In this document: piece after piece, positions 28,113 to 61,408 of the stretch
How the letters are laid out: each line of letters starts with the position of its first letter
Numbering within the stretch: the first letter of the stretch is position 1
DNA from: an uncultured Metabacillus sp.
GTDB taxonomy: Bacteria; Bacillota; Bacilli; Bacillales; Bacillaceae
NCBI RefSeq assembly: GCF_947503125.1
Contig: NZ_CANNCR010000004.1
Coordinates: 62,001 to 126,000 of the forward strand
Reading direction: 5' to 3'
DNA length: 64,000 nucleotides
Program-made: the position numbers and the translations under genes
Notes under the pieces: generated by a model
What the model was told of the DNA's origin: nothing
Database searches by the model: none
What the model saw: only the letters and a program-made list of their open reading frames with translations

Positions 28113-28143
28113 AAAAAGCCTTGGAGAAATCCCAAAGCCTTTT
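28113..28143 (-). terminator. Terminator of larE
   Basis: AAAAGGCTTTGG pairs with CCAAGGCTTTTT (two G-U pairs) around a 7-base loop, with its own T-run, directly after the larE stop. So gntK-larB-larC probably has its own promoter besides read-through. Confidence 0.8.
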
Positions 28144-28146
28144 CTA

Positions 28147-28947: not shown

Positions 28948-29018
28948 GGTCTTCTCCTTTCTTACATCTATTATTGTCATTACTCATCGTTTATATTTCC
29001 ATATTCAATTCGATAGAA

Positions 29019-38397: not shown

Positions 38398-40014
38398 TTA
38401 TTGAGCAACTAACGTCACGACTGATCTAGGAGGGATTTTAACTGCTTTTTTAGCAGGGACTAGATTCTTTTCCTCTAAATCAGCGTTTTCTGATGTAATA
38501 AATGGTTTAAATTGAATCGCTTGCTTTTTCCCTGGAAGATTGTCTACATTAACTTGCACAGATTTTTCTTCATTACTATAATTGACAAACACTACCGATA
38601 ATTGATCATCCTCTTCATGATAATAAGCAGATCCCATTAGTTCCTCTTGATCATTCGCCCCTTGTAAATCAACCCGGTAGGCGCCAGGTCTAACAAAGCG
38701 ACTGTAGTTTCCTAATGTCCAGAGTAATTTTGACTCAATGATCGTCTCTTTATCACCAGGATTAATATAATCCGTATAAATCAAACCATCCTTATAATCA
38801 TATCTTGACAAGGCCAACCACCATTGCCAGGCTGAAGCTTGAGTTTCTACCATATCAAAGTGAATTAATCTGGCAACATCAAGGGCTGTCTTCATTGTCA
38901 AATCTCGTCCAGGTCCATTGCTTCCCAAAATACAATATTCAGACATCCAAAATTTCACATCTTGTCCATATTGATTTAAATTTTCACGTACATATTTTCT
39001 TAAAGGAACAAGACGGTTTGCACCTGAAAAATGATCTGACCAATATGCATGTGCACTAATCTTGTTTCCAATGATTTCATTCATTACAGGATCCCCTAAT
39101 AATTCTTTGATGTATTCACGATATTTTCCAGGGTAACTGCCATTGGCATTGCCACTGTTATATACACTGTTATTGCCGGTAAATTTTGCATACATTTCAT
39201 CATCTAGCAAAGATGTATACTCTACCGCTTCAGTAGTGTCAATTTCTGTATCAAGTCCTCTATTCTTAAGTTCCTTATGCAAAGCTAAGATCACTTTTTT
39301 AATATCTTCAATGTTATACCGATTCCCTTCTTGTCCCGCATAATCCCAGCTCCATGTTGGTTCATTAATAGGACTAATATATTGGAAAGGTAATTTTTCT
39401 TCTTCAAAATGCTCTAATACATCTGCTAAAAATACAGCAAAATCATCGATAGAATCTTCTTTTAAATTTGTGCTCCCTACAGAAGGATCAGGCTGACCAT
39501 GTCCATTTTTTGTCATCCATACAGGCGGACTGTTGACAAACGCAATAAATTCTTCGACACCACGTTCCTTTGCTGCTTTTAGAAACCATTGCTGTCCAGC
39601 TTGATTGGACCAATCATATGGTTTATTTTCACCTGATTTAAAACTCTCGGTTCTTCTCCATGGATCTGTAATAATTTCCTTGTCTGTTTCTTCACTTCCA
39701 GCACCAATATTAAAACGCCACATAGATAAGCCAATTCCTTTTTCTTTTGAAAATAAGAGGTCGGCAACCTTTTTCTTATTTTCCTCTGACCATTCAGACC
39801 CTATTTTATCAAAGGACCAAGCACCAGATGCTCCGAATCCATCAATTTCTTGATACTTATTTTCTACATCAATATTGATTTCCTGAGTATTTTCATCTTT
39901 TTTCGTAGACATATTGTTTTCCTTTGCTTTAATATCTGTTGGAACAAATGTTAACATAAGTAAGAATATCGATAATTTACAGAACCAAGAAACTACCTTT
40001 TTATTTTGAAACAT
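38398..40014 (-). CDS. Secreted glycoside hydrolase family 30
   Basis: A 538-residue secreted enzyme: signal peptide (KLSIFLLMLTFVPTDIKA), a (beta/alpha)8 barrel beginning YQEIDGFGASGAWSFD, acid/base Glu in SPINEPTWSW, nucleophile Glu in FWMSEYCIL, and a beta-sandwich C-terminus. In this gene setting the endo-beta-1,6-galactanase subfamily is the most likely; other GH30 enzymes act on xylan or glucans. GGAGG lies 7 bases before the ATG. It follows a GH2 gene and is the last of the run. Confidence 0.88.
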   Translation of the reverse strand: MFQNKKVVSWFCKLSIFLLMLTFVPTDIKAKENNMSTKKDENTQEINIDVENKYQEIDGFGASGAWSFDKIGSEWSEENKKKVADLLFSKEKGIGLSMWRFNIGAGSEETDKEIITDPWRRTESFKSGENKPYDWSNQAGQQWFLKAAKERGVEEFIAFVNSPPVWMTKNGHGQPDPSVGSTNLKEDSIDDFAVFLADVLEHFEEEKLPFQYISPINEPTWSWDYAGQEGNRYNIEDIKKVILALHKELKNRGLDTEIDTTEAVEYTSLLDDEMYAKFTGNNSVYNSGNANGSYPGKYREYIKELLGDPVMNEIIGNKISAHAYWSDHFSGANRLVPLRKYVRENLNQYGQDVKFWMSEYCILGSNGPGRDLTMKTALDVARLIHFDMVETQASAWQWWLALSRYDYKDGLIYTDYINPGDKETIIESKLLWTLGNYSRFVRPGAYRVDLQGANDQEELMGSAYYHEEDDQLSVVFVNYSNEEKSVQVNVDNLPGKKQAIQFKPFITSENADLEEKNLVPAKKAVKIPPRSVVTLVAQ

Positions 40015-40204
40015 CTTCTACCTCCATTACTTGATGGCACTATAATAATCTCCTATACATCTCACGAATGATTGGATACTTTTTCTTTTTCCTACACTTA
40101 TGAAATTCGGACACAATAACTAGTGCTTGGATAATTCATTACCTTGTACGATAGGCATCACCTCCTTTATAGATAATGGACCATCCCCTTTGCAGAATGT
40201 TTAT

Positions 40205-40334
40205 TTATCCATGCAGATCAACTCTAGGTTTAATAACCTTAAAGCGATCTTCCGTTTCCTCTACATCATAAATTTTTGCTCGAGATTCAGGTGTACTGAA
40301 TGGATGGTGCAAAATAAGTCTCCAGGCACCGGCA
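40205..40334 (-). pseudogene. Coding-like remnant between GH2 and GH30 genes
   Basis: One minus-strand frame directly after the GH2 stop reads AGAWRLILHHPFSTPESRAK...IKPRVDLHG and ends at TAA (40205-40207). It looks like the end of a protein and has no start or ribosome binding site. I cannot assign a family. Further on, a strong AAAGGAGGTG (near 40150-40160) opens only a 12-codon frame. Both fit debris of a deleted gene. Nothing else is seen in 40015-40204. Confidence 0.4.
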
Positions 40335-42710
40335 TTATGCCTCACCAACCTTTATGACGACAGATGAACTTTCTAAATCAACTGAAGATGTCTTTATTAT
40401 AATGGTCCCAGGTTGATCAGCAGCCCTTACATAAATTAATAGCTTCCCGTTATAAGCCTTTCTGCAGGTTGCTTTATAGTCCTGATGGCTAGCAGGGTTA
40501 CTGCATTCCATTCCAATAATTTCACCAGGTCCCTCAATCTCGCAATCTATTAGATTATTTGCGTCATAGACGAGGTTATTATCCACGTCAAGAATATTTA
40601 CTTCTACGTGTGCAACATCCTGTTTGTCTGCTTTAAGGGTTGTTGTATCCGAATGCAGCTGTATTTTTGCAGGTTCACCCGCTGTCTTTAATTCATGCGT
40701 ACAACAAACGGTTTCATTCCTTTTACCGACCGCCTTTAACGTACCCTTAGAGTATGGAATATCCCAATAGATTGTTCCACCTGGGAAATTTTCTCGTTTT
40801 TTGATACCGAAAGATTTACCGTTTAACATTAAGTCCACTTCAGGGCAATTTGTACAACAAGCTACCCTTACTGTTTCTCCTTCATTTCCTTTCCAATCGC
40901 AGACAACTTCATGATCCCAATAAATATGATCAGGATGTTCTTCCTTAAGAGAAGTTAAACCTATATGGACCATATCTTTATCAGACCAATGACTTTGTTT
41001 AAAAAAGTATAAAGGCTTTTTAAATCCAGCAAGATCAAGCATTCCAGGTGTTGCATGACGAATAGGCCAACCACGGGCTTCTCCCAAATAGTCAATCCCA
41101 GTCCAGATAAATTGACCTGATATAAAGTGATTTTGTTCTACTGCCATCCATGCATCGTGATGCCTTCCATTTTCACTTCCGTAAATCACTCTATTTGGGT
41201 ATTTTTCATGGTCTTTTAGATAACGATACTCTTGATAGTTATAACCAACCACGTCAAGAGCATCTGGAAAATCCGTTTCATTTGACATGATGACACTTGC
41301 TAAAGCTGCTGTAACAGGTCGGGTTGGATCATATTGCTTTACAACCTTTGCCAGCCTTTTTGCAATATCCCCCATTCCCTTTGCTTCAGGTTTGTCAACA
41401 TTGTAACGATCTTTTAATACTGGATGTGAATAAGGATCATTTGGATAATCAATTTCATTGCCAATACTCCAGAAAACGATCGACGGATGGTTTCGGTCTC
41501 TTAAAATCATATCCCTCAAATCAACCTCTGCCCACTCAATAAAGTCGGAAGCATATCCATCCAGTGATGGTTCGCCGATATTCCATCCCTCAACCCACTT
41601 GTTCTTAGGATGTTCCCACTCATCAAATGCTTCTTCTTGGACTAAAAATCCATAAAAATCGCACATATCAAGTAACTCTGGTGCAGGAGGGTTATGGCTC
41701 ATTCGAATCGCATTTACACCAGCTTCTTTTAATCGTTGCAGACGTCTATGCCAGACCTTTTCAGGAACAGCTGCTCCAAGACACCCTGCGTCATGATGGA
41801 TACATACACCCTTCAATTGCAAATTCTTCCCATTAAGGAAAAATCCCGACTCCGCATCGAAATGAAAAGATCGAACACCAAGCGGAGTAGTCTCGGCATC
41901 TATCACTTCACCATCTTTTATTACTTTCGTTTCCACCCTGTATAAATACGGATTTTCTGGTGCCCAAAGATTTGGCTGTACTAGAAATATAGAATGAGAA
42001 AAATCTTGCTCACCATATGCTGGAATTGTCTCCACAGAAGAACAAGCTGCTATTTCTTTTCCGACTGCATCTATAATCTGATGTCTAATTTGGCATGTAG
42101 TTTCGTTTTGATTTTCATTTTTAACACTGGTTTGAATTTGGATTTCTGCTTCTGATGTTGAGATGTTCGGAGTTGTCACAAATATTCCATACGGCTTGAT
42201 ATACATTTGATCAGTCAAGTGGATAAATACATTTCGGTAAATACCAGATCCAGGATACCAACGGGAATCAGCAAAATCGGAGTGATCTACTTTTACCGCA
42301 ATAACATTTTCTTGTGATTCGAAGTTAACATATGGGGTTAAATCATAATGAAATGAACTGTATCCATAAGGTCTTTTACCAAGAAATTGTTCATTAATCC
42401 AGACTTCACTATTTTTATAAATTCCATCAAATTGAATAAAGATTTTCTTTCCCTTTAAGCTTTCAGGTACTTTAAATTTCTTTCGATACCAGCCAATTCC
42501 ACCTGGCAAATATCCTGTTGAACTTGCATATTCCTTTTTAAAGGGTCCTTCAATACTCCAATCATGCGGCAAGTCCAATGTTCGCCAATCTGAATCATCA
42601 AATTGGTTTTTAAATGCGTCAGAATTATCACCTTTGAAAAATTTCCAATCAAAGTTAAACGTTCTCCTCTTAACAGCCAGATCCCATTCTTGTGTCAGTA
42701 CATTTTTCAT
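40335..42710 (-). CDS. Glycoside hydrolase family 2, beta-galactosidase-like
   Basis: A 791-residue cytoplasmic enzyme with the GH2 order: jelly-roll sugar-binding domain (DWRTLDLPHDWSIEGPF, GIGWYRKKF), Ig-like domain, TIM barrel with HHDAGCLGAA, AIRMSHNPPAPELLDMCD, acid/base Glu in FWSIGNEIDYP, nucleophile Glu in VIYGSENGRH, and C-terminal Ig-like domains. Likely acts on galacto-oligosaccharides brought in by the upstream ABC importer. ATG at 42710 follows AAGGGGTG. It lacks a signal peptide. Confidence 0.88.
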   Translation of the reverse strand: MKNVLTQEWDLAVKRRTFNFDWKFFKGDNSDAFKNQFDDSDWRTLDLPHDWSIEGPFKKEYASSTGYLPGGIGWYRKKFKVPESLKGKKIFIQFDGIYKNSEVWINEQFLGKRPYGYSSFHYDLTPYVNFESQENVIAVKVDHSDFADSRWYPGSGIYRNVFIHLTDQMYIKPYGIFVTTPNISTSEAEIQIQTSVKNENQNETTCQIRHQIIDAVGKEIAACSSVETIPAYGEQDFSHSIFLVQPNLWAPENPYLYRVETKVIKDGEVIDAETTPLGVRSFHFDAESGFFLNGKNLQLKGVCIHHDAGCLGAAVPEKVWHRRLQRLKEAGVNAIRMSHNPPAPELLDMCDFYGFLVQEEAFDEWEHPKNKWVEGWNIGEPSLDGYASDFIEWAEVDLRDMILRDRNHPSIVFWSIGNEIDYPNDPYSHPVLKDRYNVDKPEAKGMGDIAKRLAKVVKQYDPTRPVTAALASVIMSNETDFPDALDVVGYNYQEYRYLKDHEKYPNRVIYGSENGRHHDAWMAVEQNHFISGQFIWTGIDYLGEARGWPIRHATPGMLDLAGFKKPLYFFKQSHWSDKDMVHIGLTSLKEEHPDHIYWDHEVVCDWKGNEGETVRVACCTNCPEVDLMLNGKSFGIKKRENFPGGTIYWDIPYSKGTLKAVGKRNETVCCTHELKTAGEPAKIQLHSDTTTLKADKQDVAHVEVNILDVDNNLVYDANNLIDCEIEGPGEIIGMECSNPASHQDYKATCRKAYNGKLLIYVRAADQPGTIIIKTSSVDLESSSVVIKVGEA

Positions 42711-42762
42711 ATTCACATACACCCCTTATTTATTCATGAAACGATGGTCATATAATGTAGTG

Positions 42763-42802
42763 ATAGAAAGAGGGCTATCAAGCATGTATGATAGCCCTCT
42801 TT
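42763..42802 (-). terminator. Terminator after the sugar-binding protein gene
   Basis: A 14-pair stem, AAAGAGGGCTATCA with TGATAGCCCTCTTT, stands between the binding-protein gene and the GH2 gene. It probably makes the importer transcripts more abundant than the GH2-GH30 part. Confidence 0.85.
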
Positions 42803-42822
42803 CCCATACCTTTAACCTCAAA

Positions 42823-44403
42823 TTAATTACCTTCTACAAGCTTTTTATATTCATCCATTTGTTTTTGGATTTCTTTTAAAACCTTTTCATAACCTGCTGC
42901 TTCTAATCTCTTACGGAAATCTTCAACAGCTTTTTCCGGATCTCCAGCTTTTCCGAATGCAATCGCAGGTACCATTTGTGCAGTCACTTGCGAAAGAGCA
43001 GCAACTTCAGCTTCTACAGGTGTACTATCAAAAACAAATCGGCCATATGGGAACGGCTTCTTAATTTTATCGTACTCTGCGTAAATCTCAGTAATTCCTT
43101 TCCATTTGTCAGCACTCGGGATTTCGAACTTGTCAACACGGCCACCCCAGAAGTTTGAAGAGAATGAATGTTTTGTTTCATCATAACCTTCAGGACGAAC
43201 ACGTTTGCCGTCAACAATTTCATATTGTACGCCTTCAATACCATAGTTGAATAATTTGTAAATTTCTTCATCGTTTCGAATTAAATCGTATACCATGAGG
43301 GCACGCTCAGGGTTTTTACTATGAGCTCCTACAGCTGTAGCACCGTGAGTAACGGACATTGCAGTTAAGTTGTCACGTGTATCAGACCAAGCAAACATAT
43401 CAATTTCTGATCCTGGTTGTTTCATGTCCATTTGCACACGCAAGCCTGAGAATGTTTCTGTATGATGCTGGTCAGCACCAGTTTTTCCTGCTTGAAATAA
43501 AGCCCTGGTGTCACCTTTATAGTTCAATACGTCAGAACGCCAGTAGCCTTTATCTGCCCAATCCTTCATAAGCTTAGCATAGTCGACAAAAAGGTCTTCG
43601 AACACTGGGCTCATAACTGTATACGGATCATCATGAGATTTACCCCAATAAATTGGAAATACTCCAGTAGCGATTGGAAGTTCAATTGCATCTGAATAAG
43701 ATTGTGTATATCCCCATGCTGTCGTAACGTTTGTTCCTGGTGTATCCCAAGGAATAACGCCTGGTTTATTATCAACAATGCCTTGAAAGTATTTACCCAT
43801 TGTTTCAAAATCTTCAATAGGCTCAGTAATTCCAAATTCTTTTGCCCAATCTGTGCGATAGAAAAAGCCGTGGTTAACCCATTGAGTAAAAGAGTCCTCA
43901 GGAATCATGACAATTTTGCCATCATATTTTGTTTGCTCCCAATTCTCATCAGAAACTTCTTCCCATGTTTTAGGTGCATATGTTGGCAATAGATCTGTAA
44001 TATCCTTGAATGCGCCCTTTTGTGCATTTCCCCATGCATCTAACCAGTCAGTTGCAGTGATGATTAAATCAACTGGTTCACCAGAAGCTAGAGTTAAATT
44101 ATACTTTGTCATATAGTCCGCCCATTCGATCCACTTTATTTCAAGATGAGCGTTAACTTTTTCTTTTAATTTCGCATTTACTTGTTCCATTACTTTTTCT
44201 AACTGTCCATTTGTCGGTTTATCTCCCAACGCCAGCATCGTAATGGTTACAAATTCAGATGTATCAATTTCCCCATTTTCGTTTACCTTTGTACTTGGCT
44301 CTGATTTTTCTGAACTTGTTTGGCTGGATCCATTACAAGCTACAAGACTAAAGGTCAACAGCATGACCATGAATAGAACTAAGACCTTTCTCATCTTCAA
44401 CAT
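42823..44403 (-). CDS. Sugar ABC transporter substrate-binding lipoprotein
   Basis: A 526-residue lipoprotein: signal LVLFMVMLLTFSLVACNG with lipobox Cys, then a long type-1 extracellular binding domain (ITMLALGDKPTNGQLEKVM, LTLASGEPVDLIITATDW). The length and the C-terminal DUF3502-like part place it with the LplA/YtcQ group that binds oligosaccharides. It lies after two permease genes. GGGGAGG precedes the ATG by 7 bases. Confidence 0.92.
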   Translation of the reverse strand: MLKMRKVLVLFMVMLLTFSLVACNGSSQTSSEKSEPSTKVNENGEIDTSEFVTITMLALGDKPTNGQLEKVMEQVNAKLKEKVNAHLEIKWIEWADYMTKYNLTLASGEPVDLIITATDWLDAWGNAQKGAFKDITDLLPTYAPKTWEEVSDENWEQTKYDGKIVMIPEDSFTQWVNHGFFYRTDWAKEFGITEPIEDFETMGKYFQGIVDNKPGVIPWDTPGTNVTTAWGYTQSYSDAIELPIATGVFPIYWGKSHDDPYTVMSPVFEDLFVDYAKLMKDWADKGYWRSDVLNYKGDTRALFQAGKTGADQHHTETFSGLRVQMDMKQPGSEIDMFAWSDTRDNLTAMSVTHGATAVGAHSKNPERALMVYDLIRNDEEIYKLFNYGIEGVQYEIVDGKRVRPEGYDETKHSFSSNFWGGRVDKFEIPSADKWKGITEIYAEYDKIKKPFPYGRFVFDSTPVEAEVAALSQVTAQMVPAIAFGKAGDPEKAVEDFRKRLEAAGYEKVLKEIQKQMDEYKKLVEGN

Positions 44404-44476
44404 TTCATTTCCTCCCCTTTATCTTTTTTCATTCTAATACTCTATGAAACAAGGAAGATTCCTTAATCATATTCCA

Positions 44477-45379
44477 TTACCCCTTAACTGCACCAATTGT
44501 AATCCCTTGAATAAAGTACCGTTGTACAAACGGGTAAAATAGGATAACCGGTCCAGTAGCCACAATTGCTGTTGCCATTTTCATGGTTTCCAATGGTATT
44601 TCTTGTGGTGCTACGTTGGAAGCTGCCGCAGAGTTCCTTATGAAATCGGCACTCGTAATCACGTTATAAAGAAACAACTGCAAAGGCCTATATTCCATAT
44701 TAGGTGAAAGGAAAAGCATCGCATTATACCATTCATTCCAATACCCCAAGGCAATGAAAAGTCCGATTGTCGCCAAAGCTGGAGTAGACATTGGCAGAAT
44801 TAATCTTAAGAAGATTGTGAAATCACCGGCACCATCCATCTTTGCTGATTCCGTAATTTCATGCGGAATCGACTTTGTAAACGCCTTCATCATAATGATT
44901 AGAAACGGACTCAATAATCCTGGCAGCAGTACTGCTAAATAATTATCTTTAAGGTGCAGATACTGAGTGACTAAGAGATAAAACGGTACAAGTCCACCTG
45001 AAAAAAGGGTTGTAAAGTAGATATAAAAGGATATTTTGTTACGATACAAGAAATCCGAGCGTTGCAAAGCATAACCTGTCATCGCGATTATAAACAAACC
45101 TACTGCTGTCCCGACAAGTGTAATGACCATCGTTACGGCATATGACCCAATGATCAGTCTTGGATTTCGAAAAACAATTTCATATGCAAATGTCGAAAAT
45201 TCCTTCGGCCATAAAGCAAATCCGCTTTCCATAATTGCCTTTTCAGACGAAAAGGATGATGATACGATCAAAATAAAGGGAAAAAGACAACATAGAGCAA
45301 AAAGACCAATAAAACCATATCCAATAATTCGAACCATAATGGTAGAAAAATCTATATTTCGTCTTGCTGTACTTTCCAT
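44477..45379 (-). CDS. Sugar ABC transporter permease 2 (LplC-like)
   Basis: A 300-residue MalG-type permease with six helices and the EAA motif in ITESAKMDGAGDFTIFLRLILPMSTPAL. It begins 15 bases after the partner permease gene. AAAGGAGG precedes its ATG. No ATPase gene is in the locus; Bacillus importers of this type borrow the shared ATPase MsmX. Confidence 0.94.
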   Translation of the reverse strand: MESTARRNIDFSTIMVRIIGYGFIGLFALCCLFPFILIVSSSFSSEKAIMESGFALWPKEFSTFAYEIVFRNPRLIIGSYAVTMVITLVGTAVGLFIIAMTGYALQRSDFLYRNKISFYIYFTTLFSGGLVPFYLLVTQYLHLKDNYLAVLLPGLLSPFLIIMMKAFTKSIPHEITESAKMDGAGDFTIFLRLILPMSTPALATIGLFIALGYWNEWYNAMLFLSPNMEYRPLQLFLYNVITSADFIRNSAAASNVAPQEIPLETMKMATAIVATGPVILFYPFVQRYFIQGITIGAVKG

Positions 45380-45394
45380 AAATACATCCCTCCT

Positions 45395-46363
45395 TTAAAA
45401 CAATGAGTTTTCTGGTGAAACCTTTTTTACAATCCAGTTAGCAATAATGACGATAAGGAAGCCAAAAATGGATTGATATAAGCTTACAGCACTTCCTAAT
45501 GAAAAATTAAAATTCGTCATCAATGTTCGGAATACGTAGGTCTCAATGATATCTGTGGTTGGATAAAGCATTGTATTATTAGCACCAACTAAGTTATAAA
45601 ACAAACCGAAATTTCCTTTTAATACTCCCCCTAAAGAGAATAGTAATAAAATGATAAAGGTTGGTTTAAGCCAAGGAATAATGATATATCTAATACGCTG
45701 GAAAGCATTTGCCCCATCGATTTCTGCTGCTTCTAATATGGATTTATCAAGACCCATGATTGCAGCAAAATAAACGATCGATCCATAACCTGTGGATTGC
45801 CATAGGAAAGTAATGACAATGATATAAGGCCAAATCGCCGGGTTCGAATAAGTTTGTACTGGATCTAAGCCGACCATTTTCAAAAATGAGTTAAGTACAC
45901 CATAATCGTAACTAAGTATGTTATAAGCTAAAAGTCCAACTAGAACTGCGGAAATAAAGTGCGGAAGAAACATAATGGTTTGTGAAATCTTTTTGAACCA
46001 TTTACTTGTCAGTTCGTTAAGCATGATGGCTACAGCTATTTGCAGGAAATTCCCCAAAACAATGAAAGCTAAATTATAAGCAATCGTATTAAAGGTTAAC
46101 TTCCACAGATCACCTGTCATAATCAAAAAGCGAAAATTATCAAGTCCAACGAAAGCGCTATCAAATATACCAAGGGAATAATCATAGTTTACAAATGCAA
46201 GATAAAGCCCCGGCATTGGCAAATACGCAAAGATAGCAAAGAAAATAATCGCAGGCAAACACATAAGAAGAAGGGTTCGGTTCTTCCACATTCTTTTAAA
46301 TGCAGACTCTTTCGTTTGTTTTTTAACGATAGATGTCTGTGATTGAACAGTGACGGTTTTCAT
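45395..46363 (-). CDS. Sugar ABC transporter permease 1 (LplB-like)
   Basis: A 322-residue MalF-type permease, six helices, EAA motif in ILEAAEIDGANAFQRIRYIIIPWLKP. First gene of the importer run. A TAGGGGGGA site lies before the ATG. Two LacI-type operators stand 190-275 bases upstream. Confidence 0.94.
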   Translation of the reverse strand: MKTVTVQSQTSIVKKQTKESAFKRMWKNRTLLLMCLPAIIFFAIFAYLPMPGLYLAFVNYDYSLGIFDSAFVGLDNFRFLIMTGDLWKLTFNTIAYNLAFIVLGNFLQIAVAIMLNELTSKWFKKISQTIMFLPHFISAVLVGLLAYNILSYDYGVLNSFLKMVGLDPVQTYSNPAIWPYIIVITFLWQSTGYGSIVYFAAIMGLDKSILEAAEIDGANAFQRIRYIIIPWLKPTFIILLLFSLGGVLKGNFGLFYNLVGANNTMLYPTTDIIETYVFRTLMTNFNFSLGSAVSLYQSIFGFLIVIIANWIVKKVSPENSLF

Positions 46364-46554
46364 ATAAATCCCCCCTAAACAACATAATCTTCAAGCAGAA
46401 AGCAGCAACCGACTTTACAAAATACAGTGATGAGGTGATCTTGCAGATTACTAATCTATTGCCATGCTCCATACATATAAAAAGTCTTTACCAAACTAAG
46501 ACTTTTTAATTTGTAAAGATAGATGGTTTAGACTAATATAAGCTAGCAAGGAAA

Positions 46555-46568
46555 TGAAATGGGTTTCA
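46555..46568. promoter_or_regulatory. LacI-type operator, importer promoter (proximal)
   Basis: TGAAATGGGTTTCA is an imperfect dyad, with half-sites TGAAA and TTTCA, upstream of the importer genes. It is the weakest of the five copies. Confidence 0.6.
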
Positions 46569-46623
46569 AAAATTCACTTACCAAACATTTATCTTATATT
46601 ATTAAGCCTTATTCAAAAAATCT

Positions 46624-46639
46624 ATGAAACGGGTTTCAT
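46624..46639. promoter_or_regulatory. LacI-type operator, importer promoter (distal)
   Basis: ATGAAACGGGTTTCAT, a near-perfect palindrome with the same half-sites as those upstream of lacZ. It stands 56 bases from the proximal copy, a distance that could support looping. Confidence 0.75.
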
Positions 46640-46830
46640 AAAATTAAATAAACTGAATTATGTTAAACAACTAATCAAAAGATCCCTTAATTCGAAAGCG
46701 GTTACCATATCTTCATTATATTCGGGCTTTTATGAAAAGTAAATACTAATATTCCAAAAATTACGTTTATTTTAAAAATTCGTACTGTTCGAAAAATAAT
46801 TGGTATCATATCTTGAACTGAAACAATCGC

Positions 46831-46874
46831 AAAAATAGCGGTTCCCTTGGAAAAAATATATAATCCAAGGAAAC
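46831..46874 (-). terminator. Terminator of the LacZ-like gene
   Basis: GTTTCCTTGG and CCAAGGGAAC pair over 10 bases; CGCTATTTTTGCG follows on the minus strand. The rest of the 530-base gap before the importer genes holds the two operators and AT-rich sequence. Confidence 0.75.
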
Positions 46875-46893
46875 ACACCATCTAGACATGATG

Positions 46894-50064
<3,171 letters not shown>

Positions 50065-50070
50065 CTAATT

Positions 50071-50086
50071 ATGAAACCCGTTTCAT
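50071..50086. promoter_or_regulatory. LacI-type operator upstream of lacZ (proximal)
   Basis: ATGAAACCCGTTTCAT, near-perfect dyad, 34 bases before the LacZ start codon. Confidence 0.75.
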
Positions 50087-50142
50087 AAAAATTAACGAAA
50101 AACAATTGTACATTCATCTTTAATAGATCCTATTCCCAAACA

Positions 50143-50158
50143 ATGAAACCCCTTTCAT
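50143..50158. promoter_or_regulatory. LacI-type operator upstream of lacZ (distal)
   Basis: ATGAAACCCCTTTCAT, the same motif with one more mismatch, 72 bases from the proximal copy and just downstream of the regulator gene's stop codon. Confidence 0.7.
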
Positions 50159-50203
50159 TTTTATGGTACTCCATTTTTTTGAAAGAGGCAATATTATATT
50201 TGA

Positions 50204-51238
50204 TTATTCTGAAAATAATTTGCAAGAATCCCTTAAGACGAGTGATGTTGGAACAATTGTTTCTTTTTCTGCTTCTTTCTCATTAATTAAATCTACTAAT
50301 ACATTGATAGCCGTTTGACCCAGCTGATCATAATTCTGGCTTACAGTCGTTATTCCTGGAGGGAAATGCTCTGCCAAATAAATATCATCAAACCCAACAA
50401 CTGAAACATCATCTGGAACCTTTAAGCCAAATTTGGTAAGTACTTTTATTACTCCGATCGCTACAAAATCATTGGCACATATAACCGCTGTAGGCCTTTC
50501 TTTTAAGTAAAGTAATTGTGCAGCAACTTCTTCACCTGATTCAATACTAAACCCTGTACCAAAAATCCAATCTCTGTTAATAGTTAAACCTTTATTTTTC
50601 ATCACTTTACCAAAAGTATTCCTTTTCAAGTCAGTTGAACTTACTCCTTCTTTTCCGCCAAGAAAACCAATCTTTTTATGATTTAGATTGACTAATAATT
50701 CAACAAGCTTTTCAATCCCTGACTCTTCGTCCGTTCTCACAATATGTGCATCTACCCCAGCCATTTGACCATTAACAAAAACAACAGGAATTCTTTCCAT
50801 CACTGTTTTCATTTCTTCAGCATATTCCTGATCGGTATCAGTATCGTTAATTCTACCACCCAGATAGATAATCCCATCAACCTGTTTTTCTACTAAACTT
50901 TGCAAGTATTTAGACTCATTTTCAGAGTTGTTCATCGTATTGCACAAAAAGGATGTATACCCTAATTCCAATGCATGTGCTTCACTTTTTTGTACCAATG
51001 TTGAAAAAAATGGATGATTTATGTCTGGTAAAATAAACCCAATCGTTTTCGATTGCTTATGGAATAGGCTTCTTGCTAAACTATTAGGTCTAAAATTATA
51101 TTTTTCAATCACATCAACGATTTTCCGCATGGTCTGTGGCCGTACTTTTGCATTTCCGGTTAAGACTCTCGATACTGTAGCTGGAGATACATTAGCTTCT
51201 TTAGCAATATCATATATTGTTATATTTTCCTTTTTCAT
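50204..51238 (-). CDS. LacI-family transcriptional regulator
   Basis: A 344-residue repressor. The helix-turn-helix ITIYDIAKEANVSPATVSRVLTG occupies the first 28 residues, with a hinge helix near LARSLFHKQ, then a periplasmic-binding-like sugar domain. It sits between lacZ and the divergent GH43 gene and is the obvious binder of the five matching operators. GGAGG precedes the ATG. It may be co-transcribed with lacZ or autoregulated. Confidence 0.94.
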   Translation of the reverse strand: MKKENITIYDIAKEANVSPATVSRVLTGNAKVRPQTMRKIVDVIEKYNFRPNSLARSLFHKQSKTIGFILPDINHPFFSTLVQKSEAHALELGYTSFLCNTMNNSENESKYLQSLVEKQVDGIIYLGGRINDTDTDQEYAEEMKTVMERIPVVFVNGQMAGVDAHIVRTDEESGIEKLVELLVNLNHKKIGFLGGKEGVSSTDLKRNTFGKVMKNKGLTINRDWIFGTGFSIESGEEVAAQLLYLKERPTAVICANDFVAIGVIKVLTKFGLKVPDDVSVVGFDDIYLAEHFPPGITTVSQNYDQLGQTAINVLVDLINEKEAEKETIVPTSLVLRDSCKLFSE

Positions 51239-51553
51239 CAGTTTCCTCCATCGCTAATGATGTCTTTGTATTCTAGAAGGTCATTGAAAAAAACTCAAGT
51301 CACCTGTTTAAAATACTATCATAATCATTCGTCATTACCTGTCGATTTCCCTACCTTTTGTTCAATAAATTAAAGGAGTCATCACCTGCTACCATTCAAT
51401 CCGAAGTAATTCTTTCTTCAAATCTCACACAAAGCAACTGTATCATATTTCTCTTTTTTCGGCTTGGTTTTAAGCTTAATAAAACAAGGAAGAATATAAA
51501 AATTAGGAAAACATCATCCAATAAAAAATGATTATTTTCATTTTAACTTTTTA

Positions 51554-51582
51554 TTGACAGAATAAAAAATACACAGTATATT
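51554..51582 (+). promoter_or_regulatory. SigA promoter of the GH43 gene
   Basis: A consensus -35 TTGACA (51554-51559), a 17-base spacer and -10 TATATT (51577-51582). The 315 bases further upstream, to the regulator start, are AT-rich without other clear sites. Confidence 0.8.
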
Positions 51583-51595
51583 GAAACCGGTTGCA
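51582..51595. promoter_or_regulatory. LacI-type operator on the GH43 promoter
   Basis: TGAAACCGGTTGCA, the classic LacI/GalR half-site pair with a central CCGG, begins at the last base of the -10 box and covers the start of transcription. A bound repressor would block it. Confidence 0.8.
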
Positions 51596-51750
51596 GTTTC
51601 AAAATATTCAGAATTTTGAATTGCCCCCTCCCTCTTTTGAAGACCCTTTTACCCCAAGACCTACACAACAGAAAAAACGAAACACATTACATCACGAACT
51701 GCTTTCCTAGAACTCTTTCACCAATTCATTATTTTTTAGGAGGAATGACC

Positions 51751-54700
51751 TTGCCTAAGACAAGAAAAGTAGTTTCACTCATGCTGGTCATCTTAATGGC
51801 CGTATCTTCTTTCTTTATTACACCATCCTTTGCAGCTGAGACAAATAGCGGAGATCCAACAGCCTTTTCAGAACAAGAACTAAAAGAAAATGACTACATT
51901 CTTTATTTTGTAAATGCAGGTGACCCTACCCCTGAAACTGTTGAAGGAGCCGATAAAATGGGGCTCTTTTCTAGTAATACGGAGCAAATATATGGCACTG
52001 ATCCAATAACAGGGAAAAAGTGGGGCTTAGTCACCACAACTACAAGCACAAGTGTTAATGATACAGGAAATAAATATGGGACATTACGCTATTACAATGG
52101 ACCTCAAACACGTGACAAGGCAATTCAATATAAGTTTGAATTACCTGAGGGAGAGTACGATCTTACCTTAGGCTTTAAGAATCCTTGGAGCGGCCGAAGC
52201 GTTAATATTCTGGGTGAAGGAAATAATCTATCAAATGGAGATTTTGATATTGGCAGTTATTCAGCTGAAAAAGAAGTTACGTATCAGCAGGTGAAGGTAA
52301 CTGACGGGGAACTTGATGTTTTGATTAAAGGACCGGCATCAGCTAATCTAACGGTTCATAATGATCCATTGGTTAACTACATCATCATTAGAAAATATGT
52401 TGTCATTCCTCTTTCTGATTTGGAAACGAAAATTGAAGCTGCAAAAACAGAAGCGGAAAAGACAGATACCTATACAAAGTATACCTTGGAAGCACTAAGT
52501 AATGCGATTGAAGAAGCTGAAACTTTTGTACGTTCTATCAAAGAAAATAACCTTGATATTAAATCAAAAGAAGTCCAAACAAAAATAAGAGAGGCGTTAG
52601 CAAACTTGGAAGAAGCCATAAACGGACTTGCATTAGATATTCCAAATGAATCCTTTAAGCCGGGACAAGAATGGCGAGATACGAATGGTGCCATCATTCA
52701 AGCACATGGCGGCGGAATCATGTACGATGAAAATACGAAAAAATATTATTGGTATGGTGAAGATAAAACAAATGGTTATCTTCCAGCAAGGGGTGTAAGA
52801 GTTTATTCATCTACAGATCTTTATAACTGGAAGGATGAGGGGCTTGCACTAACGGCTATTGAATCAATGGAACAATTCGAAACCGATCCGCTTATTTCAA
52901 AGCTATATGAAGGACGAACTGATAAAGCTGATATCTTGAATGACATCGGTACAGATAGGGTAATTGAAAGACCTAAAGTAATCTACAACGAAAAAACGAA
53001 GAAATATGTCATGTGGATGCACACAGATGGCCCTTCTGAAACATCGAATGCGATGTATGCGAAAGCTGAAGCAGGCTATTCGTTAAGTGACTCTCCTACC
53101 GGACCTTTTGTTTATCAAGAAAGCAACCGTATGGATAGAGCTCCAGAGGATGCAGAATATAATGGACAGCCGGATCAGCCAGGCATGGCACGTGATATGA
53201 ACCTGTTTAAGGATGATGACGGGACGGCTTATCTGATCTATTCCAGTGAAGAAAACATGACGATTTATATTTCTAAATTAAACGAAGAATATACAGACGT
53301 TGTCGGCTGGCATAAGGATGGCAATGAAGAACGGGATGAAACCTATAAAGCTGTTTATGGCGAAGATTATATTCGAGTTTTTCCTGGTGCACAACGCGAA
53401 GCTCCTGCGATGTTTAAATATGATGGAAAATACTATATGATTACATCTGGTGCAACCGGTTGGGATCCTAACCCTGCTCGATATACAGTTGCCGATAATA
53501 TATTTGGAGAATGGAAGCCGCTGCGCAATCCAGCTGTAGGAGAGAAAGCATCGACAACCTTTGATTCACAAAGCACGAATGTCATACCTGTTGATCCGGA
53601 AAACGGAAAGTTCATTTTCATGGGTGACAGATGGAACAAAAATGACTTAAGTAATTCAAGATATGTTTGGCTGCCAATTGAATTTGGCCAGGACGATGAA
53701 ATTATTTTGCAATGGTATGATGAATGGAAGCTGGATCTGTTAGACAGAATGGGGAAAGTTACCATCAATACGGATCTTCTTGAAAAGGTTGCAATTGATC
53801 AAATACCTAATTTGCCAAATGTTATTAATGTTACAAATACACAAGGAAAACAAATGGATACACCAGTAAAATGGACCATTAAACCAGAAGCGTTTTCAAA
53901 ACCGGGTACGGTTACAGTTGAGGGGCTCTTACCTGAATTAGCGAACAAGATGATACGAACAAAAATTCTCGTTATTCCAGACAATGTTCGATTCTTCGTT
54001 CATGCAGGCGGAGCAGCAACAAGCGATTATAAGCTTTGGTCCTCTTATATGCAAAAAACACTTATAAATAAAGACACCATCGACCAACAATATGCTCCTG
54101 AAAAAGGATTGACATGGGGATATGTTGGTGATCGGACAAGACCAGCCGGCAGTGAGGGCGGGGATTTATTCTCAGCATTACGCTACCTATTAAGGGACTC
54201 TGGAGATGATCTGACTTATAATTTTAACCTGAAAAACGGAAACTATACTGTTTATACCGGGCTTTATGACCCTTGGTATTCATCAACAAGAGGCAGCAGA
54301 AAAGCGAATATCTTGCTTAATGGAGCTACAAAAACAAGCGGTTATGTCTTTACTGATTCCTATGATGTACTTGAATACGAACACGTGAAAATTACCGATG
54401 GAAAGCTTGATCTAACTGTTCGAAGAGTACCTGGTTCACCTGACCCTCAGATTAGCTGGATCATGATTGTCGAAGAAGATACAACCGCACCGGCTGGTGA
54501 CTTTACAATTAATTCGGGGGCAGAGTACACAAATAAACAAACTGTCACTCTCTCCCTTACTGCTGAAGATGATTTAAGCGGAGTTGATCAGGTTCGTCTC
54601 TCTTCTGACGGGGAGAATTGGAGTGATTGGGAAGCTTTTGATTCAACGAAAGAGTTTGTTTTACCAGCTGGTGATGGGCAGAAAACTGTTACTATGCAAT

Positions 54701-55221
54701 TAAAAGACAAAGCTGGCAATATAAGCACAACCTTGCAAAAACAAATCACATTAGATACAACCGGGCCAGTCATTAAGTTTACAGGAAATGAGGAAAACTA
54801 TACCATCGATTCACAAATCGCTATTTCCTGTCAAGCTGTTGATGAATTGTCGGGAATCAAACATTTTGATTGCCCAGGTGCAAATGGTGCTGCGTACAGC
54901 TTTAAACTCGGAGAAAATAAAATCTCGGCTACCGCAACTGACAAAGCAGGAAATACAACTGAAATAAAAACCGTATTTACAGTCACAGTGGATTTTGACA
55001 GCTTAAGCCGGTTAACTGAAAGCTTTGTTAATCAGGATGGTATTGCCCATTCTCTTACAAAGAAATTAGCATCAGCTAAAGAAGCAGCTTCTATAGGGAA
55101 TCGTGAAGCAATGGCGGGAAAACTTAAGGCCTATACAAATCAAGTTGCTGCACAAAGCGGGAAGTCGATTACCACTGAACATGCTGATTTGCTCATTTCA
55201 TTGGCAGCTAATCTAAAATAA
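51751..55221 (+). CDS. Secreted multidomain GH43 (exo-beta-1,3-galactanase-like)
   Basis: About 1156 residues. Signal peptide (VVSLMLVILMAVSSFFITPSFAAE), malectin-like module (about 45-215), FIVAR-type helices (220-295), GH43 five-blade propeller (about 305-660) with AHGGGIMYDENTKKYYWYGE and FMGDRWNKNDLSNSRYVWLP, as in the exo-beta-1,3-galactanase subfamily, a Big-like domain, a second malectin-like module (about 745-910), two Ig-like repeats, and a C-terminal helical FIMAH-like domain. No sortase signal. TTG at 51751 lies 7 bases after AGGAGG; an ATG at 51745 is too close. Confidence 0.88.
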   Translation: MPKTRKVVSLMLVILMAVSSFFITPSFAAETNSGDPTAFSEQELKENDYILYFVNAGDPTPETVEGADKMGLFSSNTEQIYGTDPITGKKWGLVTTTTSTSVNDTGNKYGTLRYYNGPQTRDKAIQYKFELPEGEYDLTLGFKNPWSGRSVNILGEGNNLSNGDFDIGSYSAEKEVTYQQVKVTDGELDVLIKGPASANLTVHNDPLVNYIIIRKYVVIPLSDLETKIEAAKTEAEKTDTYTKYTLEALSNAIEEAETFVRSIKENNLDIKSKEVQTKIREALANLEEAINGLALDIPNESFKPGQEWRDTNGAIIQAHGGGIMYDENTKKYYWYGEDKTNGYLPARGVRVYSSTDLYNWKDEGLALTAIESMEQFETDPLISKLYEGRTDKADILNDIGTDRVIERPKVIYNEKTKKYVMWMHTDGPSETSNAMYAKAEAGYSLSDSPTGPFVYQESNRMDRAPEDAEYNGQPDQPGMARDMNLFKDDDGTAYLIYSSEENMTIYISKLNEEYTDVVGWHKDGNEERDETYKAVYGEDYIRVFPGAQREAPAMFKYDGKYYMITSGATGWDPNPARYTVADNIFGEWKPLRNPAVGEKASTTFDSQSTNVIPVDPENGKFIFMGDRWNKNDLSNSRYVWLPIEFGQDDEIILQWYDEWKLDLLDRMGKVTINTDLLEKVAIDQIPNLPNVINVTNTQGKQMDTPVKWTIKPEAFSKPGTVTVEGLLPELANKMIRTKILVIPDNVRFFVHAGGAATSDYKLWSSYMQKTLINKDTIDQQYAPEKGLTWGYVGDRTRPAGSEGGDLFSALRYLLRDSGDDLTYNFNLKNGNYTVYTGLYDPWYSSTRGSRKANILLNGATKTSGYVFTDSYDVLEYEHVKITDGKLDLTVRRVPGSPDPQISWIMIVEEDTTAPAGDFTINSGAEYTNKQTVTLSLTAEDDLSGVDQVRLSSDGENWSDWEAFDSTKEFVLPAGDGQKTVTMQLKDKAGNISTTLQKQITLDTTGPVIKFTGNEENYTIDSQIAISCQAVDELSGIKHFDCPGANGAAYSFKLGENKISATATDKAGNTTEIKTVFTVTVDFDSLSRLTESFVNQDGIAHSLTKKLASAKEAASIGNREAMAGKLKAYTNQVAAQSGKSITTEHADLLISLAANLK

Positions 55222-55263: not shown

Positions 55264-55342
55264 TATTCAATCCCTAGCTTTTGAATAAATTTTCAAAATA
55301 ATGTAAATAATTGTAATAAAAAGCTTTTAGGAGAGTTTGTTT

Positions 55343-55741
55343 ATGTTACATGATAAAAAGTATTACGTGGAAGATCCAGATTTTTTAGAGAAAAGAATGA
55401 AGATTGCCAAAATGACGAAAGATCCTTTACTGCAAATTGAAATGTTTGAAAATGAGACAGCAAAACAAAGGTTGCTGCAATTGGTTTCCGTTGCACAGGA
55501 GACATTTTTATATACGAGGGATACGGTGGAAATACATACCTCAGATCTCAATCTTATGTTTAGAGCAATACTTCATTTAGTCAGACTAACGAAAGATGAT
55601 CTTTCCGATCTTGAATATTGCTATGTTTTAAGTAATTTAGATCATGTCACCACGAAATTGATACAATGTTGTGAAGAGATAAAAACATATTCGGACTCAC
55701 CGATGGTTCGAAAGAAGAAACGGCAAGGTTACTTTGATTAA
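55343..55741 (+). CDS. Unknown helical protein (132 aa)
   Basis: A soluble, mainly helical protein of 132 residues (LLQLVSVAQETFLYTRDTVEI, DLEYCYVLSNLDHVTTKLIQCCEEI) with a basic tail MVRKKKRQGYFD. No signal peptide. ATG at 55343 follows TAGGAGAG by 7 bases. Its own terminator follows. I recognise no family. Confidence 0.65.
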   Translation: MLHDKKYYVEDPDFLEKRMKIAKMTKDPLLQIEMFENETAKQRLLQLVSVAQETFLYTRDTVEIHTSDLNLMFRAILHLVRLTKDDLSDLEYCYVLSNLDHVTTKLIQCCEEIKTYSDSPMVRKKKRQGYFD

Positions 55742-57221: not shown

Positions 57222-58683
57222 TTACATTGATTTTGTAAACTCAGAAAACCTCTCACTAACTTGTGCAGAAGGCTTATTAGTAAGTAAACTAACAATATAC
57301 ACAGCTAAAAGACTTGCTGCAAACGCTGGTACCATTTCATACAGAAAATCGGACAGCCCTAACTTCGACCAAACGATCACATGATCGCTCCTGTAACCAT
57401 TCCTGCAAGCGCACCCCATTTTGTCATTCTTCGCCAATATAAGCTTAAAAGAATGACTGGACCAAATGATGCCCCAAAGCCAGCCCAAGCATAGCTAACT
57501 AACCCTAGAATCGTGTTGTTTTGAGTCCATGCCAGGCATAAAGCTAAAATTGAAACAACTAATACGCATAATCGCCCCATGAAAACAAGCTCTTTATCAG
57601 AAGCTGACCTGCGGAAAAAGGTCTTGTAGATGTCTTCAGTTAATGAACTTGATGTAACAAGTAATTGTGAGGAAATAGTGCTCATAACCGCTGCCAATAT
57701 TGCAGATATTAAGAAGCCAGTAATAATTGGATGGAACAGGATATTTCCTAATTCAATAAAAATCGTTTCAGGGTCAGCAATTTTCATACCTTCTTTCGAA
57801 TAATACGCAATACCCAGAAAACCTGTTAACATGGCACCAATCGTGGAAAAAATCATCCAGTTCATCCCAATTCGACGGGCCCTTTTGATTTCTTTTACAG
57901 ACGTAATCGCCATAAAGCGGACAATGATGTGCGGTTGTCCAAAATAGCCTAGCCCCCATGCAAATAATGAAATGATGCCGAGGAAGCTTGTTCCTTGAAA
58001 GATATCCAACAGCTCTAGATCAATTGAACGAATTTCCGAGATTGCTTCTGTTGGACTGCCAATTTGGAGCAATGTCACTATCGGCACTAATATTAACGCA
58101 ACAATCATAATAATTCCTTGTACAAAATCAGTCCAGCTAACAGCCAGGAATCCCCCAAATAATGTATAGGCTACAGTGACCCCGCCAATAAGCCATAACC
58201 CTGTATGATAATCAAGATTTAAAATGCTATTAAACAGCAGACCGCCTGATACCATTCCAGACGAAACATAAAAAGTAAAAAAGATAATAATGATAAGACC
58301 TGAAAACAAGCGAAGGATCTTCGTTTTATCATTAAAGCGGTTTTCTAAAAAGGCTGGAATTGTAATGGAGTTATTCGCCATTTCCGTATAAGTACGTAAG
58401 CGTGGTGCTACATAAAGCCAGTTAGCCCATGCCCCCAATGTTAGACCGATCACAATCCAGGAAGCCGATAAACCTGTCGCATACATGGCACCAGCAAGCC
58501 CATCATAAGCCAGCCGCTCATACCAGATGCACCAGCACTTAATGCTGTCACTGCCGGACCAAGATTCCTTCCTCCAAGCATATAATCTGATAGGTTTGCC
58601 GTACGTTTATAGGCATAATAGCCGATTAAAAGCATCCCAACCATATAAACACAAATCGATAAAATTAGCTGCAAATTAACCAT
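57222..58683 (-). pseudogene. putP: Proline:sodium symporter PutP, two frameshifts
   Basis: The three frames together give a complete 487-residue SSS-family symporter (ATG at 58683 after GGGGG). The first break is near 58492-58495: GGCTTGCTGGTGCC needs one more C to read [15 protein letters not shown]. The second is near 57378-57382: ATCATGTGATC needs one more G to read MVIVWSKLG. All 12-13 helices and the Na+ site segments are otherwise intact. As sequenced, no full protein is made. Both changes are loss of one base of a GG or CC pair. Confidence 0.92.
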
Positions 58684-58759
58684 TTTATTCCCCCATCCAC
58701 TACTTTGTTTCAATTTTTATATAAAATATTTTATAAATATACTATAAAAGTAGAAAAAT

Positions 58760-58787
58760 AATAGAAAGCAGATTTTGATCTGCTTTC
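58760..58787 (-). terminator. Terminator of putC
   Basis: GAAAGCAGAT and ATCTGCTTTC pair over 10 bases around a 4-base loop; TATTATTTTT follows on the minus strand. Confidence 0.85.
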
Positions 58788-58799
58788 CATTAATAATGG

Positions 58800-60347: not shown

Positions 60348-60371
60348 AATAATCGACTCCTTTTCGTTTGG

Positions 60372-61289
60372 TTATTTTTTTGTCATTCCCTTTAGAGCAA
60401 ACGCAATATTTGCCGGGCGCTCTGCAAGTCTTCTCATAAAATAGCCATACCAGTCATTTCCGTATGGAACATAGACTCGCATTTTATAGCCTTCCTTGAC
60501 TAGTTCCTTTTGTGTTGCTGTTCTCATCCCATAAAGCATTTGAAACTCAAATTGAGTGGTTGGGATATCATGTTCTTTTGTCAATTTTTTTGTATATTCA
60601 ATCATTGCATCATCATGTGTTGCAATGGCTGTATAATTTCCATTTAATAAATTCATTTTTATGAGCTTTTTATAATTTTCATCAACATCTGCCTTCACTG
60701 GAAAGGCTACTTTTGCTGATTCCTTATACGCTCCTTTTACTAATCGTAAAAAAGGTTTATATTGATTTAAATCTTGGAGATCTTTTTCTGTTCGATATAA
60801 ATATGCTTGTAAAACTGTGCTAACATAGGTGTAGCGTTGTTTAAAATCTTTGAAAATATCAAGTGTTTTTTGGCATCGTTGTTCATCCTACATATCGATC
60901 GTAACCATTATTTTGTGCTTTTCAGCTTTATCCAAAATTCTCGTCATATTTTCAAAGACAAGGTTTTCATCAATGTCTAAGCCTAAGGACGTCATTTTTA
61001 ATGAAACTTGAGAATCCAAGTTTTGTGCAGCAATCGTTTCAATTGTTTGAATGCATTCTTCTGTACGTTCCCTTGCAATAGCTTCATTAGTAACAAACTC
61101 ACCTAAATGGTCAACTGTAACCGAAAGCCCCTCTTCATTTAATTCTTTTATAAATTTTATGGAGCTAGGAAAATCAAGACCACCGACAATCTTACCTGCT
61201 GCAATATTTCCTCCCCAATTTTGGGCTGCTTTATTTAACGCTTTATTTTTGGATAGATATAAGAAAAAATCTCTAGTAAGTACCTGCAC
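60372..61289 (-). pseudogene. putB: Proline dehydrogenase PutB, in-frame amber stop
   Basis: FAD enzyme of the first step of proline oxidation. From GTG at 61289 (after GGGGGTG) the frame reads VLTRDFFLYLSKNKALN to MVTIDM, then TAG at 60888-60890, then continues in the same frame with DEQRCQKTLDIFKDF to the end GMTKK, about 305 residues in all. The family has Glu at that place, so a single G-to-T change (GAG to TAG) explains it. FAD-binding parts YGMRTATQ and YMRRLAERP-like YGYFMRRLAERP lie after the stop, so the short product would be inactive. Confidence 0.93.
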
Positions 61290-61408
61290 TGCATACACCC
61301 CCATAGGATCAAGCTAATAAGAGTTTCATAATGTTTCCTTAATGATAATTTTACAATTGTGACCAAACTGTAACAATGTAGCGGAAATACAAAGATTTGG
61401 CCTTGTCT

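Follow-up and report, generated by a model that had tools for sequence, protein, structure and literature searches.

Arabinogalactan proteins (AGPs) form the coat of plant cells, and the locus described here raises the question of whether a Bacillaceae bacterium carries a system for using their type II arabinogalactan (AGII). The locus occupies positions 38398-55221 of a 64-kb window, meaning the whole stretch of DNA analyzed, which corresponds to bases 62001-126000 of contig C4 in a genome of 5.44 Mb and 244 contigs. The bacterial AGP users named in the accessible parts of the cited literature are Bacteroides, Bifidobacterium, and Streptomyces. A literature search that mostly did not cover subscription papers found no Bacillus AGII locus named in the titles or abstract openings among the matches listed.

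A sequence-only reading had proposed that eight genes here make up an AGII utilization locus. They encode a secreted glycoside hydrolase of family 43 (GH43), a secreted GH30, two GH2 enzymes, three components of an ATP-binding cassette (ABC) importer, and a LacI-family regulator. All eight open reading frames (ORFs) are present, and their Pfam and NCBIfam domains agree with the proposal. We put the probability that this is a LacI-controlled AGII utilization locus, in a Bacillaceae bacterium near Bacillus sp. SA1-12, at roughly 0.82. At the level of the system the proposal stands, with one correction: the enzyme for the beta-1,6 step was misassigned, and the likely carrier of that step lies elsewhere in the genome behind the same predicted operator.

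The secreted GH43

The GH43 gene (P0008; 51745-55221, plus strand) encodes a secreted, multimodular protein. Its ORF extends from 51616 to 55221, and visual inspection of the ribosome-binding site makes the ATG at 51745 the likelier start. The protein matches PF04616, and its catalytic part spans approximately residues 344-713. The best structure matches of this domain are 6eug (270 bits), 6euf, 3vsf, 7bys, and 5flw, followed by 3nqh, with other GH43 structures far weaker. The structures 6eug, 6euf, and 3vsf belong to GH43_24, a placement partly taken from the accessible text of PMC7939473. According to that text, eight subsite -1 residues of Pc1,3Gal43A are fully conserved across three GH43_24 enzymes, including a Gln that replaces the usual catalytic base. 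All eight are identical in P0008: Glu57, Glu102, Arg103, Tyr126, Asp158, Glu208, Trp229, and Gln263 correspond to E382, E451, R452, Y481, D527, E595, W616, and Q652. Two further positions differ, with Asn179 replaced by Glu and Thr226 by Ala. The nearest structures and the conserved residues thus bear out the proposed exo-beta-1,3-galactanase type, GH43_24, and exo-action on beta-1,3-galactan is the predicted activity.

P0008 also carries two related beta-sandwich modules (residues ~89-262 and ~789-955) together with Ig-like and OmpL47 domains. A predicted model of the first module, with a mean predicted local distance difference test score (pLDDT) of 83, resembles malectin-like and CBM35-, CBM36-, and CBM61-like folds, with no single clear family. 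The best fold match of this N-terminal module is residues 714-886 of the GH2 beta-glucuronidase 6d8g (Z 14.7, root-mean-square deviation 3.4, 141 residues aligned). Its Foldseek matches include, at ranks 30-37, chains of the CBM35-bearing exo-beta-1,3-galactanase entries 7bys, 7byv, and 7byx.

Predicted operators and the GH30_5-type gene

A predicted LacI-type operator connects the locus to a candidate enzyme for the beta-1,6 side chains. The 14-bp palindrome TGAAACNNGTTTCA precedes the lacZ-type gene, the importer genes, and the GH43_24 gene, with five predicted sites in the locus (no strand assigned). Two lie upstream of the importer genes, at 46555-46568 (one mismatch) and 46625-46638 (exact). 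An exact site at 50072-50085 lies upstream of the lacZ-type gene, and a one-mismatch site at 50144-50157, which has no counterpart at up to one mismatch in SA1-12, lies between that gene and the gene for the LacI-family regulator (P0007; 50204-51238, minus strand; Pfam and NCBIfam matches). The fifth site, TGAAACCGGTTGCA at 51582-51595 (one mismatch), begins at the last base of a sigma-70-like promoter in front of the GH43_24 gene (TTGACA-17-TATATT, 11/12; 51554-51582, plus strand). This promoter is the best sigma-70 consensus match of the region, and it runs into the operator with the same hexamers and spacing in SA1-12 and Metabacillus bambusae.

Genome-wide, the exact palindrome occurs at 4 places, against 0.89 expected and 2 for a reversed control. 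The operator core TGAAACCCGTTTCA (CCCG/CGGG) occurs at 3 places in the 5.44 Mb, two of them within the locus and the third on contig C11, against about 0.065 expected; both expectations come from a first-order model built from the stretches sampled. One exact match, C2:129371, has surroundings without sugar genes by eye and is taken as chance. A further operator-like site, C11:114791, precedes a 612-aa ORF; it may be a cre site or the target of a different LacI protein.

The core site on C11 lies about 190 bp upstream of a GH30_5-type gene (L132:7110-10313), whose secreted product of 1067 aa has GH30, ricin-type lectin, Ig-like, and F5/8 galactose-binding domains. Its best GH30 structure is 24td (165 bits), the Streptomyces avermitilis enzyme Sa16Gal30A that the accessible text of PMC13431644 assigns to GH30_5. 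The GH30 tree places it with the GH30_5-side rows, a split supported at 100/100, where its group is sister to 24td. Trp359, Gln229, and Tyr294 of 24td are kept, while Asp354 is replaced by Glu, Trp222 by Tyr, and the secondary-site Trp341 by Gln. Its grouping with 24td suggests a GH30_5-type enzyme. It could also be a galactobiohydrolase of GH30_11, a proposed subfamily named in the accessible part of PMC11058611 and without a reference among the sequences compared, because the sister-group position and the substituted binding residues leave the two indistinguishable.

This gene was also found in SA1-12 and M. bambusae among ten genomes searched, with an exact operator before it in the former and a one-mismatch operator in the latter. 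In SA1-12, predicted sites precede the lacZ, importer, GH43_24, and GH30_5-type genes; in Metabacillus niabensis, the importer genes and a second lacZ; in M. bambusae, the GH43_24, GH30_5-type, and GH30_4 genes, the last with two intergenic sites of one mismatch each. Another genome of the order, G239, has GH43_24, GH30_5-type, ABC importer, LacI, and, by eye, GH35 genes side by side, with a one-mismatch operator before the GH30. In genome G059, a GH30_5-type gene adjoins a 34%-identical GH43_24-like gene. AGII is supported as the target because the operator of the locus also stands before the GH30_5-type gene elsewhere in this genome and before its counterpart in SA1-12; the counterparts in M. 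bambusae and G239 have it with one mismatch. Through the predicted operator only, a GH43_24 enzyme, a beta-1,6-galactanase, a transporter, a regulator, and a beta-galactosidase would come under one control. The weight of the operator argument lies in how the sites cluster, where they stand, and how the closest relatives keep them, rather than in raw counts, and the sites themselves are predictions.

Two observations concern the relatives' own copies. The SA1-12 copy of the GH30_5-type gene (L135, G299:C43) has one TAG inside the match. M. bambusae (L122, G301:C12) carries a pair of GH43_24 genes on opposite strands about 7 kb apart, with 92% and 70% identity to P0008.

The secreted GH30 of the locus

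The sequence-only reading had offered the secreted GH30 of the locus (P0001; 38398-40014, minus strand; PF14587, 302 bits) as a possible endo-beta-1,6-galactanase. This assignment is not supported, as P0001 groups with 3clw (GH30_4), away from 24td. The 3clw structure, Bacteroides fragilis BF1510, is its closest solved relative by sequence (258 bits, ~33% identical) and in a fold search (rank 1, E 1.1e-48); the accessible text of PMC13431644 places it in GH30_4 and calls it uncharacterised. Since 24td is missing from the best 50 fold matches listed for P0001, the comparison between the two structures rests on sequence. A maximum-likelihood tree of 45 rows, with the long branches L154 and L107b left out and L135 and L136 included, splits at 100/100: P0001, 3clw, and 32 rows stand against 10 rows on the 24td side, with one outgroup row. 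The GH30_4 call depends on grouping with 3clw, which stands on a long branch and is the tree's sole GH30_4 reference. P0001 was rejected as a xylanase or beta-1,6-glucanase, since its NCBIfam scores fall far short of the cut-offs (69 bits where 700 is required, and 58 where 650 is) and are family-level echoes only. By sequence, the GH30 falls in neither a xylanase nor a glucanase subfamily and the GH43 falls in subfamily 24.

P0001 is in the same family as Sa16Gal30A and conserves the catalytic Glu pair, and the galactobiose-binding residues Asn216, Glu217, Gln229, Tyr294, Glu320, and Trp350 of 24td are retained. Unlike Sa16Gal30A, it belongs to a different clade and lacks the subsite -2 residues Asp354 and Trp359: Trp350, Asp354, and Trp359 align with Trp, Ser, and Asp, leaving only the first in place, and Trp222 lies opposite a gap. 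The C11 protein is the nearer counterpart of the Streptomyces enzyme. P0001 might nevertheless be a true endo-beta-1,6-galactanase despite its subfamily, given that subfamily 4 is described in the accessible part of PMC13431644 as having the same -1/-2 cleft arrangement as the GH30_5 enzyme, and that Gln229, which reads the axial O4 of galactose, is present as Q228. Because the outgroup GH30 L139 has this Gln as well, the residue is not diagnostic and gives no proof of a galactan substrate. Together with the tree split, the substitutions at subsite -2, the gap at Trp222, and the GH30_5-type enzyme already in the genome, this makes an endo-galactanase quite unlikely.

GH30_4 includes two characterised members, called beta-D-fucosidases in the accessible part of PMC5966431, and beta-fucosidases are likewise entered under GH30_4 in that of PMC11058611. 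A genome scan confirmed 578 GH30_4 relatives; the best 80 were kept, so this set leans toward near relatives. In 15 of the 80 loci the P0008 module is part of the GH30 polypeptide, in 5 an arabinofuranosidase-like domain is, and in two both are; all of these are Paenibacillus. The arabinofuranosidase-like domain scores about 200 bits against the BAD1527 model in the two cases tested, below the cut-off. Tentatively, the GH30_4 clade of Bacillota might be an uncharacterised, AGII-specific class of secreted exo-type enzymes that trims beta-linked galactose or 6-deoxygalactose from side chains beside GH43_24 and GH30_5, and that in Paenibacillus is covalently joined to a shared module of glycan-binding type and an arabinofuranosidase-like domain; we lean slightly against so broad a claim. 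The GH30_4 enzyme is the part of the locus worth specialist attention. Among the Paenibacillus loci, L065, L067, and L076 encode giant GH30_4 proteins of 2132, 2244, and 3237 aa with three P0008-type modules each, and L076 also has the arabinofuranosidase-like domain.

The relatives also raise another possible substrate. The locus could serve a different beta-galactan or galactoside, such as algal galactan or the sugars of saponins or galactolipids, with GH43_24 as an accessory beside a general beta-galactoside operon. Marine Vibrionaceae carry GH30_4 with lacZ and lacI and without GH43_24, in the one locus examined closely with an MFS_2-type sugar transporter as well, and the accessible text of PMC5966431, besides naming the beta-D-fucosidases, suggests saponin sugars for one gut locus type. 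This explanation appears improbable in view of the single operator type common to the GH43_24, lacZ, importer, and GH30_5-type genes in several genomes and of the neighboring GH43_24 and GH30_5-type genes in G239. Type I galactan is also an unlikely target, because the one GH53 gene sits apart on contig C21; that polymer is probably handled elsewhere in the genome. AGII remains the substrate that we favor.

Conservation among relatives

The named relatives nearest to P0001 among the best 80 are Bacillus sp. SA1-12 (93% identical) and M. niabensis (87%). SA1-12 has the whole locus in collinear order, plus an intact intracellular GH43 gene, and M. niabensis conserves the importer-GH2-GH30 order. 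This conservation indicates that the locus is more than a chance assembly. Flanking GH2 genes like P0002 or P0006 occur in 28 of the 80 GH30_4 loci, made up of 24 of the 39 without a Bacillota classification and 4 of the 41 Bacillota. A control set of 27 stretches yields 3 such cases (Fisher P 0.026 for all 80 loci and 4e-5 for the 39); these controls, each at least 10 kb and fetched for purposes other than GH30_4 or the SA1-12 locus, are rich in glycoside hydrolases by choice.

The GH30 could be a passenger that came to lie beside the operon by drift and acts alone as a secreted enzyme on a substrate of its own. GH30_4 genes without nearby locus genes, in genomes G094 and G190 and in the flanks of Bacillaceae loci such as L038-L040, fit this idea, as does the lack of an operator before the GH30 gene here. 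The gene nevertheless keeps the same position in SA1-12 and M. niabensis, two one-mismatch operators precede it in M. bambusae, and in Paenibacillus it has the fusion partners and module sharing described above. A passenger is on balance unlikely, and we continue to count the GH30 as part of the AGII locus.

Across 299 genomes of the order, including this one and searched at E 1e-60, GH30_4 occurs in 4, GH43_24 in 6, and GH30_5-type genes in 4. GH43_24 is present in two of the three other GH30_4-bearing genomes among the remaining 298, with P ~0.0007 if the genomes were independent, which they are not fully.

Several results count against AGII use and shared control. GH43_24 was found in 0 of the 80 GH30_4 flanks from the best 80 of 578 relatives and is rejected as a fixed GH30_4 neighbor, although 20 of these loci are shorter than 21 kb and one, L036, ends short of its GH43_24 gene, which came to light when the stretch was extended. 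It is lacking in two of the five GH30_4 genomes searched whole. In G081 and G094, where both genes occur, they lie on different contigs. No locus gene lies near GH30_4 in G094 or G190; in G081 the importer trio alone is in the vicinity, at a distance of about 15 kb. Independence is also lacking among the genomes in these counts, as G081 and G190 belong to one genus. As far as seen, the GH43_24-GH30_4 pairing is specific to the SA1-12 lineage.

The regulatory evidence has similar counterweights. Besides the missing operator before the GH30 gene, no site at up to one mismatch occurs in L023 (the importer trio of G081), L124 (the M. niabensis GH43_24), L044, L045, L169, L170, or L171, and the site found in L168 does not adjoin its GH43_24. 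The one-mismatch pattern shows mild enrichment genome-wide (29 places against 20 for the reversed control). Two-mismatch sites in the window are not significantly enriched (10 against 6.1), and promoter-like matches in the region show no clear enrichment (70 against 60.5, standard deviation 7.8).

Predicted import and intracellular cleavage

The remaining genes agree with the proposed logic of import followed by intracellular beta-galactosidase action. The ABC importer comprises a solute-binding lipoprotein with a DUF3502 domain (P0003; 42823-44403) and two permeases identified by Pfam (P0004; 44477-45379, and P0005; 45395-46363), all on the minus strand. The locus has no ATPase gene; a genome search turned up one of MalK/MsmX type. 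Both GH2 genes are also on the minus strand. The 1047-aa enzyme (P0006; 46894-50037) matches the LacZ-type beta-galactosidase model NF052611 above its cut-off and is predicted to be intracellular. The 795-aa enzyme (P0002; 40335-42722), likewise predicted to be intracellular, is beta-galactosidase-like, with a GalA/GalB-type GH2 match below the cut-off and DUF4982 and C5 domains. By eye, signal-peptide-like N-termini are present on the GH30 and GH43 and on neither GH2. The galK gene is located elsewhere in the genome, outside the locus.

Candidate arabinofuranosidase genes

The sequence-only reading had noted that no arabinosidase gene is included. This is correct for intact genes in the locus. 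It misses a GH43 remnant within the locus, a GH51 gene nearby, and a secreted protein with two GH43 domains elsewhere. SA1-12 and M. niabensis have an intact intracellular GH43 gene between the GH2 and GH30 genes (330 aa in SA1-12). At 40204-40324 on the minus strand, this locus retains the 3' remnant of such a gene. It shows 84% nucleotide identity to SA1-12 over 112 bp, and its last 39 codons are 87% identical. The best solved match of the intact counterpart is 5c0p, called an endo-arabinase (179.5 bits); a literature search on 5C0P found no paper. A 36% paralogue of the lost GH43 is present on contig C53.

GH51 has three matches in the genome, and one of these genes, encoding an arabinofuranosidase, lies 1.1 kb to the right of the window. 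Its surroundings (L130, G000:C4:124000-143999) also contain an ABC importer (by eye), a regulator with GntR and periplasmic-binding-type domains, and an IlvD/EDD-like dehydratase, and may form an arabinose-oligosaccharide operon. On contig C11, the first GH43 domain of a secreted LamG-GH43-GH43 protein matches the NCBIfam BAD1527 model at 257 bits, against a cut-off of 500. For comparison, the accessible part of PMC8939339 describes BlArafE, an enzyme of GH43_22-GH43_34 architecture that is active on gum arabic AGP. It places BAD_1527 in GH43_22 as a beta-xylosidase, while NCBIfam names it an alpha-arabinofuranosidase, and because of this disagreement the activity of BAD1527-type domains is not certain. 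The same C11 region (L027, G000:C11:1-19999) shows this protein, which also has a FIMAH domain, beside a furanose-type ABC importer (by eye) and a second very long ORF.

Proposed mechanism and known systems

From the gene content, subfamilies, operator-like sites, conservation, and lost GH43, all read from sequence, we infer how substrates, products, inducer, transport, and repression may fit together. Members of the GH43_24 family by-pass branch points, and outside the cell P0008 would take galactose off the beta-1,3-galactan backbone and free beta-1,6-galacto-oligosaccharide side chains. The GH30_5-type enzyme, encoded elsewhere under the same predicted operator, would cut these beta-1,6 side chains, and the secreted GH30_4 might trim galactose-configured residues (beta-D-Gal or beta-D-Fuc) from the same glycan. 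The ABC importer would take up the oligosaccharides, and a shared MsmX-type ATPase would energize it; the function that the accessible text of PMC5730181 gives MsmX in B. subtilis is in line with an ATPase outside the locus. Inside the cell, the two GH2 enzymes, joined in the ancestral form by the intracellular GH43, would split the oligosaccharides, and galactokinase would begin galactose use. LacI would repress at the promoter.

The catalytic domain of P0008 resembles the GH43_24 enzymes for AGP of Bacteroides thetaiotaomicron, BT3683 and BT0265, which we take to be the sources of 6eug and 6euf. The AGP loci of that species are Gram-negative SusCD loci, unlike the ABC import in a Gram-positive seen here. 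Bifidobacterium longum offers a second comparison, with an AGP cluster that, in the accessible part of PMC10850190, contains Bl1,3Gal (GH43_24, BLLJ_1840) and Bl1,6Gal (GH30_5, BLLJ_1841). The two systems share a secreted GH43_24 and, as predicted here, a GH30 galactanase and GH43 arabinofuranosidases in a separate cluster. Unlike in B. longum, the GH43_24 and GH30_5-type genes here are on different contigs, joined only by the predicted operator, and the locus itself has a GH30_4 with GH2 and ABC importer genes alongside.

Other observations in the window

Beside the GH43_24 gene, a 134-aa ORF at 55337-55741 has no Pfam or NCBIfam match at E 0.001, and a tRNA scan led nowhere. At 24237-28980 lies what appears by eye to be a LarB/LarC/LarE-like cluster for nickel-pincer cofactor synthesis, beside a sugar kinase, an SDR, and a TRAP transporter. 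Its LarC-like gene is split into two ORFs, the larger with a long His-Asp repeat. At 57377-61304, proline-use-like genes (by eye) for a symporter, an aldehyde dehydrogenase, and a proline dehydrogenase are found; truncation or splitting into short ORFs seems to have affected the start of the symporter and the dehydrogenase.

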